Assembly (NCBI GenBank): GCA_019117085.1
Contig: DXAJ01000044.1
Span: 1-47,488, forward strand
Source: Candidatus Gallimonas gallistercoris
GTDB taxonomy: Bacteria > Bacillota > Clostridia > Christensenellales > Borkfalkiaceae
Reading direction: 5' to 3'
DNA: 47,488 nucleotides
Position numbers and translations under genes: made by a program. Below, one piece after another: positions 27,454-28,752 of the stretch. Positions within the stretch are counted from its first letter, which is position 1; each line of letters begins with the position of its first letter. Under the pieces are notes generated by a model. The model had not been told where the DNA came from, made no database searches, and worked only from the letters and a program-made list of their open reading frames with translations.

Positions 27454-27714
27454 ATGATGATCCATTCTTTGGCGGGCGGGGTGCTCGCGGACGGAGAAAT
27501 TTATACCTTTGCAAAAGTTCGGGCGGGGGAGGAGGCCGGGTGGTATCTCGTGCCCGAGCTCGTCTTCGTGAAGGAGGGCGACAGGGTGCTCGTGCCCGAA
27601 GGGCACCTCACGCGCGAGGGCGTCGTGGAAAAGCTCGAACGCTGCACGCGGCAGACCGCGCCCGTCCCCATGAGCCGTGTCAAAGAGATCGCGGGGCTCG
27701 CGCAAAACGGTTGA
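27454..27714 (+). CDS. Small hypothetical protein (86 aa)
   Basis: ATG after aaaggag RBS; acceptable composition; no recognised family. Confidence 0.55.
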   Translation: MMIHSLAGGVLADGEIYTFAKVRAGEEAGWYLVPELVFVKEGDRVLVPEGHLTREGVVEKLERCTRQTAPVPMSRVKEIAGLAQNG

Positions 27715-27746
27715 CAACCCGCCGCCCTCCGTGTTATCATGGGGAG

Positions 27747-28160
27747 GCATAGGGGAGTAGAAGGCCCCCTCGGGCGGTATTCTTCCACATATTGCGGCGA
27801 TGCGCCGCGGGGATACTGTAAGGGAACAATAGGGACCACGCTTTTTGCGGCATCTTTTGTGCGCCTTGCCGTTCATCGTCTTTGCAATACGCGGGTATTG
27901 CTGCATCCTCTTCGCGGCAATCCATCCCAAAATCTTGCCGCAAAAAGTGCGCAGCAATCAAAAGCGGCAAGATGGGCGCTAAGACGAGGCGAAGCCCGCA
28001 GGCCGTGCCGACCGCACGGTCAAGGGCTTCAACAATGTATGAGCGCCTCAGTTTCCGCTTTTGATCGGGTCCGTACTATTCCCTTACAGTATACCTAAAA
28101 CATCGAGACCTGTGCACGGAACGCTTTTTCGGCGCGCCGTGCACGGGTCTTTCTTTTTAC
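27747..28160 (+). promoter_or_regulatory. Probable yybP-ykoY manganese riboswitch with intrinsic-terminator expression platform, interrupted by a ~280-bp insertion
   Basis: 5' GCATAGGGGAGTAG and 3' CATCGAGACCTGTGC match the conserved GGGGAGUAG / GCGAGACC segments; GCAUAGG pairs with CCUGUGC as P1; GACCTGTGCACGG (28107-28119) also pairs with CCGTGCACGGGTC (28137-28149) followed by tttcttttt; mntP follows. Confidence 0.75.
27813..28092. mobile_element. MITE-like ~280-bp element bounded by ~25-bp terminal inverted repeats
   Basis: ATACTGTAAGGGAACAATAGGGACC ... reverse complement ATACTGTAAGGGAATAGTACGGACC (22/25 identical), no internal ORF; internal inverted repeats CTTTTTGCGGCA/TGCCGCAAAAAG and ATCAAAAGCGG/CCGCTTTTGAT. 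Confidence 0.65.
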
Positions 28161-28173
28161 GGGAGAAACATTC

Positions 28174-28752
28174 ATGAGCATTTTTGATATCGTCTTATTG
28201 GGCGCGGCGCTTTCGATGGATGCGGCGGCGGTCGGCATGGCGAATGGCATGGCGGAGCCCCGTATGAGCCGCAAAAAGACCTTTCTCATCGCCCTCTTTT
28301 TCGGTGTCTTTCAGGGCGGGATGCCCCTTTTGGGATATTATGGGAGTTCCGTCTTTTCCTCCCTCGTCGGGCGCATCGCACCCTATCTTTCCTTCATGCT
28401 GCTCCTCTTTTTGGGCGGGAAGATGCTCCTCGACGCGGCGTTGGAAGAGGAGGGGCGCTTCCTTGTGAGGCGGGAGGGGCTACGTCTTCCCGCGCTCACC
28501 GCGCAGGCGGTCGCAACTTCTATCGACGCGCTCGCCGTCGGCGTTTCCTTCATGGCACAGGAGGCGGCGGGCTCTCTTCCGCTCGGCGTGCCGATCTGCG
28601 CCCTCATCATCGCCGCGACCACCTTTCTTTTGTCGCTTGCCGCCGTGCAGGTGGGGAAACTCACGGGCGATAAACTTTCGGGCGGGGCGCAAAAGATAGG
28701 CGGGCTCGTGCTCGTCCTCATCGGCATCAAGCTGCTTTTTGAAGCATTTTGA
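28174..28752 (+). CDS. mntP: Putative manganese efflux pump MntP
   Basis: Six-TM, two-repeat protein: LGAALSMDAAAVGMANGM and AVATSIDALAVGVSF. Confidence 0.92.
   Translation: MSIFDIVLLGAALSMDAAAVGMANGMAEPRMSRKKTFLIALFFGVFQGGMPLLGYYGSSVFSSLVGRIAPYLSFMLLLFLGGKMLLDAALEEEGRFLVRREGLRLPALTAQAVATSIDALAVGVSFMAQEAAGSLPLGVPICALIIAATTFLLSLAAVQVGKLTGDKLSGGAQKIGGLVLVLIGIKLLFEAF

Follow-up and report, generated by a model that had tools for sequence, protein, structure and literature searches.

In the draft genome of Candidatus Gallimonas gallistercoris, a MITE-like repeat has been inserted, probably recently, into the yybP-ykoY-type Mn2+ riboswitch aptamer in the leader of the manganese efflux gene mntP, an event found in this one species and likely to have weakened manganese control of the gene. 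This reading is given a probability of roughly two in three (0.68). The window analysed is a stretch of 47,488 nt, contig G000:C13 of a 1.63 Mb genome assembly (G000) in 114 contigs; leader coordinates below refer to its + strand.

The inserted segment is 278 bp long (27814–28091, TACTG...CAGTA), with the target TA remaining on either side. A first-pass annotation of the same DNA had called an insertion of about 280 bp at 27813–28092; the insertion itself is real, and only its size and limits needed revision. The inverted ends described there are also present, as 28-nt arms at 27810–27837 and 28068–28095 with 86 % complementarity. Deleting the 278 bp recreates GGGGATACC, identical to the sequence of a sister species, G273. 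Where G273 reads GCCGCGGGGATACCTGAAATTTTGAGACC, the window reads GCCGCGGGGA-[278 bp]-TACCTAAAACATCGAGACC, and the two halves of the window leader match adjacent stretches of G273, colinear and without gaps across the aptamer. A repeat-driven misjoin of contigs is a very improbable source of this arrangement: copies of the element do stand at the start or end of several contigs of the assembly, but the two flanks here are the syntenic halves expected of an mntP leader and follow each other in the proper order, this copy is itself complete, and the flanks meet at TA as they do around other copies.

Upstream regions of 90 mntP genes were gathered from genomes of the same genus. Of these, 72 contain a recognizable leader in which both L1 strands are present, and at 18 loci there was no leader within the stretch examined. 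The other 71 leaders, those of G001, G056, G035 and G027 among them, all lack the insertion. It is confirmed and far beyond chance, since the element is multicopy and since the aptamer core, measured from the first L1 strand to GAGACY, spans 77–91 nt in 70 of the 72 leaders and 359 nt in the window. The only other exception is G001, the closest sister species, whose MntP is 96 % identical in protein to that of the window; its leader (L017, contig G001:C17, reverse strand) has a tandem-duplicated P3/L3 arm with two TCCACA loops and a core of 137 nt. As the insertion is missing from the closest sisters it is probably young, and the lack of visible decay in the rest of the window leader relative to sister leaders therefore says little, being compatible with a recent arrival as well as with a functional switch.

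The leader begins with a sigma-70-type promoter, TTGACA-18-TATCAT (27711–27740), that matches the consensus at 11 of 12 positions and recurs in the sister leaders. The 5′ strand of P1, GCATAGG (27747–27753), pairs with CCTGTGC (28109–28115) in a helix conserved across the genus alignment, with a predicted probability of about 0.98 in the presence of the insert when the terminator is left out. Next come the 5′ strand of L1, GGAGTAG (27754–27760), part of the yybP-ykoY core and near-invariant in 36 aligned leaders, and the P2 hairpin GCCC-CCTC-GGGC (27764–27775), assigned from the genus consensus fold and its covariation. The 5′ strand of P3.1, GGTATTCTTCC (27776–27786), belongs to a helix in which five pairs show double changes. 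It is followed by the L3 strand ACATATT (27787–27793), 3′ of the conserved TCC within a TCCACA motif that is invariant in the alignment, and by the P3.2 hairpin GCGGC-GATGC-GCCGC (27794–27808), on which consensus fold, covariance model alignment and covariation agree. The 3′ strand of P3.1 is interrupted: its L3-side part, GGGGA (27809–27813), is contiguous in G273 with what is position 28092 of the window, and its outer part, TACC (28092–28095), was recognized by comparison with sister leaders. The aptamer halves are thus 27747–27813 and 28092–28115. For these placements the G273 allele, which is nearly identical, was aligned to the covariance model; MAFFT displaced the P3.2 loop when the joined leader was added to the genus alignment.

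The insertion hence falls in the 3′ strand of P3.1, between its L3-side and its junction-side part, at the base of the arm that bears the Mn-binding loop L3. The first-pass annotation had put it about where P4 should be, a position to be discarded, as the genus aptamers show no P4. Beyond the insertion lie CATC, the 3′ strand of P1.2, and GAGA, the 3′ strand of L1 (28101–28108, with GAGA at 28105–28108), GAGAC being near-invariant in the alignment. An intrinsic terminator occupies 28105–28158, an inverted repeat with a 15-bp outer stem (28105–28119/28137–28151) and a U-tract, and the 3′ strand of P1 lies inside this stem in the predicted fold. mntP itself (28174–28752) encodes a manganese efflux pump of 192 aa (Pfam PF02659 Mntp, 120.5 bits against a cut-off of 24.4). 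Promoter, L1, L3, P1 and the overlap of P1 with the terminator are all retained in the window leader; the strand shared by P1 and terminator agrees with the first-pass annotation. At 28096–28104 the P1.2 3′ strand, AAAACATC, resembles GAAACATC of G035 and G027 and not GAAATTTT of the closer sisters G001, G273 and G056, a likeness that suggests recombination or retained ancestry.

Thirty-six of the 72 leaders, among them those of G056, G035 and G027 but not that of G273, form the genus alignment (A1), from which a covariance model (R1) was built. The alignment folds into P1, P1.2, P2, P3.1 and P3.2 with 97.3 % of cells paired; double changes occur in 15 of 27 pairs, and slid partners pair in only 34–50 % of cells. 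Three helices meet at the junction of this consensus. Sister leaders score 74–88 bits with R1, the window matches through the left part of its aptamer only (34 bits), and the G001 leader gives two partial matches of 37 and 29 bits.

Assignment to the yybP-ykoY riboswitch, as first proposed, holds for the type, through the genus model and the relatives; the Rfam threshold, however, is missed. RF00080 has a gathering score of 45 bits, reached by no scanned genome of the family. It finds no match in the window or its own genome, gives 20–36 bits on the best relatives (top 33.7–36), and scores 16.1 bits on the empty allele, so that the match looked for in the spliced leader falls short. The leaders at L046 and L047 do align to the RF00080 core. 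The conserved L1 strands (GGGGAGUAG ... GAGAC) and L3 strand (UC[CA]ACA) are present in the window and near-invariant in the 36 leaders; the genus family has covarying P1, P2 and P3 helices, of which P3.1 is interrupted in the window. On these L1 and L3 letters, the manganese exporter gene downstream and the P1/terminator design, the data argue for a yybP-ykoY-type leader. It is called a type rather than a formal RF00080 member because the genus has a three-helix junction, whereas the known aptamers of L. lactis and X. oryzae are four-way junctions (PMC6754395) with two docking legs. The leader thus resembles RF00080 in its place before mntP, in its L1 letters and UCCACA L3, and in a P1 that overlaps an intrinsic terminator; it differs in lacking P4 and, in the window copy, in being split by 278 nt.

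The inserted sequence belongs to a dispersed family, with about nine copies or fragments in the host genome and carriers among 17 of 103 genomes of the genus. Forty-four distinct copies were collected, in length classes of about 60, 160, 278, 385 and 490–509 bp, the full-length ones 76–92 % identical to the window copy. They end in TACTGTAAGGG...CCCTTACAGTA and are mostly flanked by TA on both sides. A second element locus also has an element-free orthologue, diverged at the joint. Twenty-eight full-length copies share a consensus fold of 81 pairs, 97.3 % paired, with double changes in 22 of the 81; the outer helix, formed by the terminal inverted repeats, comprises 20 pairs over 23 columns and is 96.4 % paired. 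Changes on both sides of a pair were counted in 138 cells, against 46 in shuffled and 3–32 in slid controls, although the copies represent a few lineages and independent events are fewer than changed cells. No Rfam family matched the element. The DDE_3 transposase (PF13358), the only transposase family searched for, had no match in 14 carrier genomes. The element is therefore called a non-autonomous, TA-targeted, MITE-like repeat.

Since the insert has a covarying fold of its own, it could be viewed as an intrinsic extension that evolved with the riboswitch rather than as a mobile element. The distribution of the sequence refutes that view: G273 has the empty allele, the other leaders likewise lack the insert, and many unrelated loci carry it, which bears out the earlier preference for an insertion over an arm common to all orthologues.

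Some element copies at other loci lie close to transcription signals. G000, G001 and G273 share one and the same insertion right at a gene's −10 box, TACAAT (L003, L077, L092), with the 385-bp form in G273. In G038 (L081) a copy at 1503–1782 (− strand) is followed after 18 nt by a ZTP riboswitch (1404–1484, − strand; RF01750, 54.6 bits), and TTGACA lies 17 bp ahead of a TATAGT that the insertion joint has created. A −35-like hexamer lies 16–18 bp from TATACT in 8 of 84 distinct element ends (L113, L075, L085, L081 and others), with about 1.2 expected. The ends of the element thus seem to rebuild a −10 box, and in some cases a transcript may begin with ~270 nt of element sequence. A bias in how copies are oriented towards genes was set aside, as the ORF calls were crude. 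These ends raise the idea that the right end of the window copy supplies its own promoter, driving mntP downstream of a broken aptamer. On the + strand, however, the scan predicts no promoter within this copy or at its right end, and RNA started there would in any case run into the terminator; this account is highly unlikely.

In the normal state, Mn2+ docking of L1 on L3 stabilizes P1 (P1.1) and blocks the terminator in yybP-ykoY riboswitches (PMC6754395), and mntP would be switched on; without Mn2+ the 3′ strand of P1 would serve as the 5′ strand of the terminator. With the repeat in the 3′ strand of P3.1, the transcript would carry a self-paired arm of ~278 nt beside the three-way junction. 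Its inverted ends are expected to pair in RNA, and this pairing would run into the flanking GG/CC, compete with P3.1 and destabilize the ligand-competent fold. Because the terminator is intact and dominant without ligand, mntP would then be mostly off or less responsive to manganese. Weakened or lost manganese control is our favoured guess from the modelled folds.

When the RNA is constrained to the full aptamer fold, the price is 2.3 kcal/mol for the joined leader and 10.0 kcal/mol once the element is in place, as its end-stem reaches into the flanking GG/CC. The resulting penalty of ~8 kcal/mol is soft, since nearest-neighbour energies take no account of tertiary docking or of folding during transcription, and sister leaders without an insert also misfold in silico. 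Once included, the terminator wins in every leader tested, a predicted default that is in keeping with a switch turned on by its ligand.

The same leader can be read as a riboswitch that still works, the repeat forming an extra arm that turns the three-way into a four-way junction without disturbing P1 or the docking of L1 on L3. The aptamers known from L. lactis and X. oryzae have four-way junctions (PMC6754395), the predicted fold pairs the inverted ends and keeps P1 probable when the terminator is left out, the letters of L1, L3, P1 and the terminator are kept, and in pneumococcus the regulation by two T-boxes seems to go on working with a BOX element between them (PMC3049150). Against this, the element stem takes the GG/CC needed by P3.1, and the presence of the element in a single species gives no sign of selection for keeping it. 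The native element also does no better than shuffled inserts, with which the full fold costs 9.3 ± 2.4 kcal/mol: among 100 shuffles, 71 were equal to or cheaper than the native element for the full fold and 36 for the core. As shuffled inserts cost about the same, the energy test lends no support to a special compatibility of the element or to the idea that it preserves the aptamer better than they do. A working switch with an added arm is accordingly rated possible but unlikely, and it is equally doubtful that the transposable element has been adopted as a fourth structural arm that retunes the Mn2+ response; a recent insertion with weakened control is preferred.

The window leader and its precise empty counterpart in G273 form a natural pair in which to ask whether a large self-folding insert is tolerated by a riboswitch, abolishes it or retunes it. 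The comparison also raises the question of how much of the diversity of riboswitch arms could stem from transposition. A search of the open-access literature brought up no case of a mobile repeat within an aptamer helix of a riboswitch, and a review of MITEs merely speculates on riboswitch roles (PMC10969869).

Like other bacterial MITEs (Correia, ERIC and the pneumococcal RUP and BOX elements), the repeat is short, dispersed and non-coding, with inverted ends and strong secondary structure, and it shares with them modular lengths (60 to ~500 bp) and insertions flanked by TA; it differs in that its sequence family was found here in this genus and has no Rfam match. The nearest precedent is the BOX element between two trp T-boxes of pneumococcus (PMC3049150), likewise a mobile repeat in a riboswitch-controlled leader and part of a composite 5′ UTR transcript. 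There, however, the BOX lies between two intact aptamers, whereas the repeat in the window lies inside an aptamer helix.
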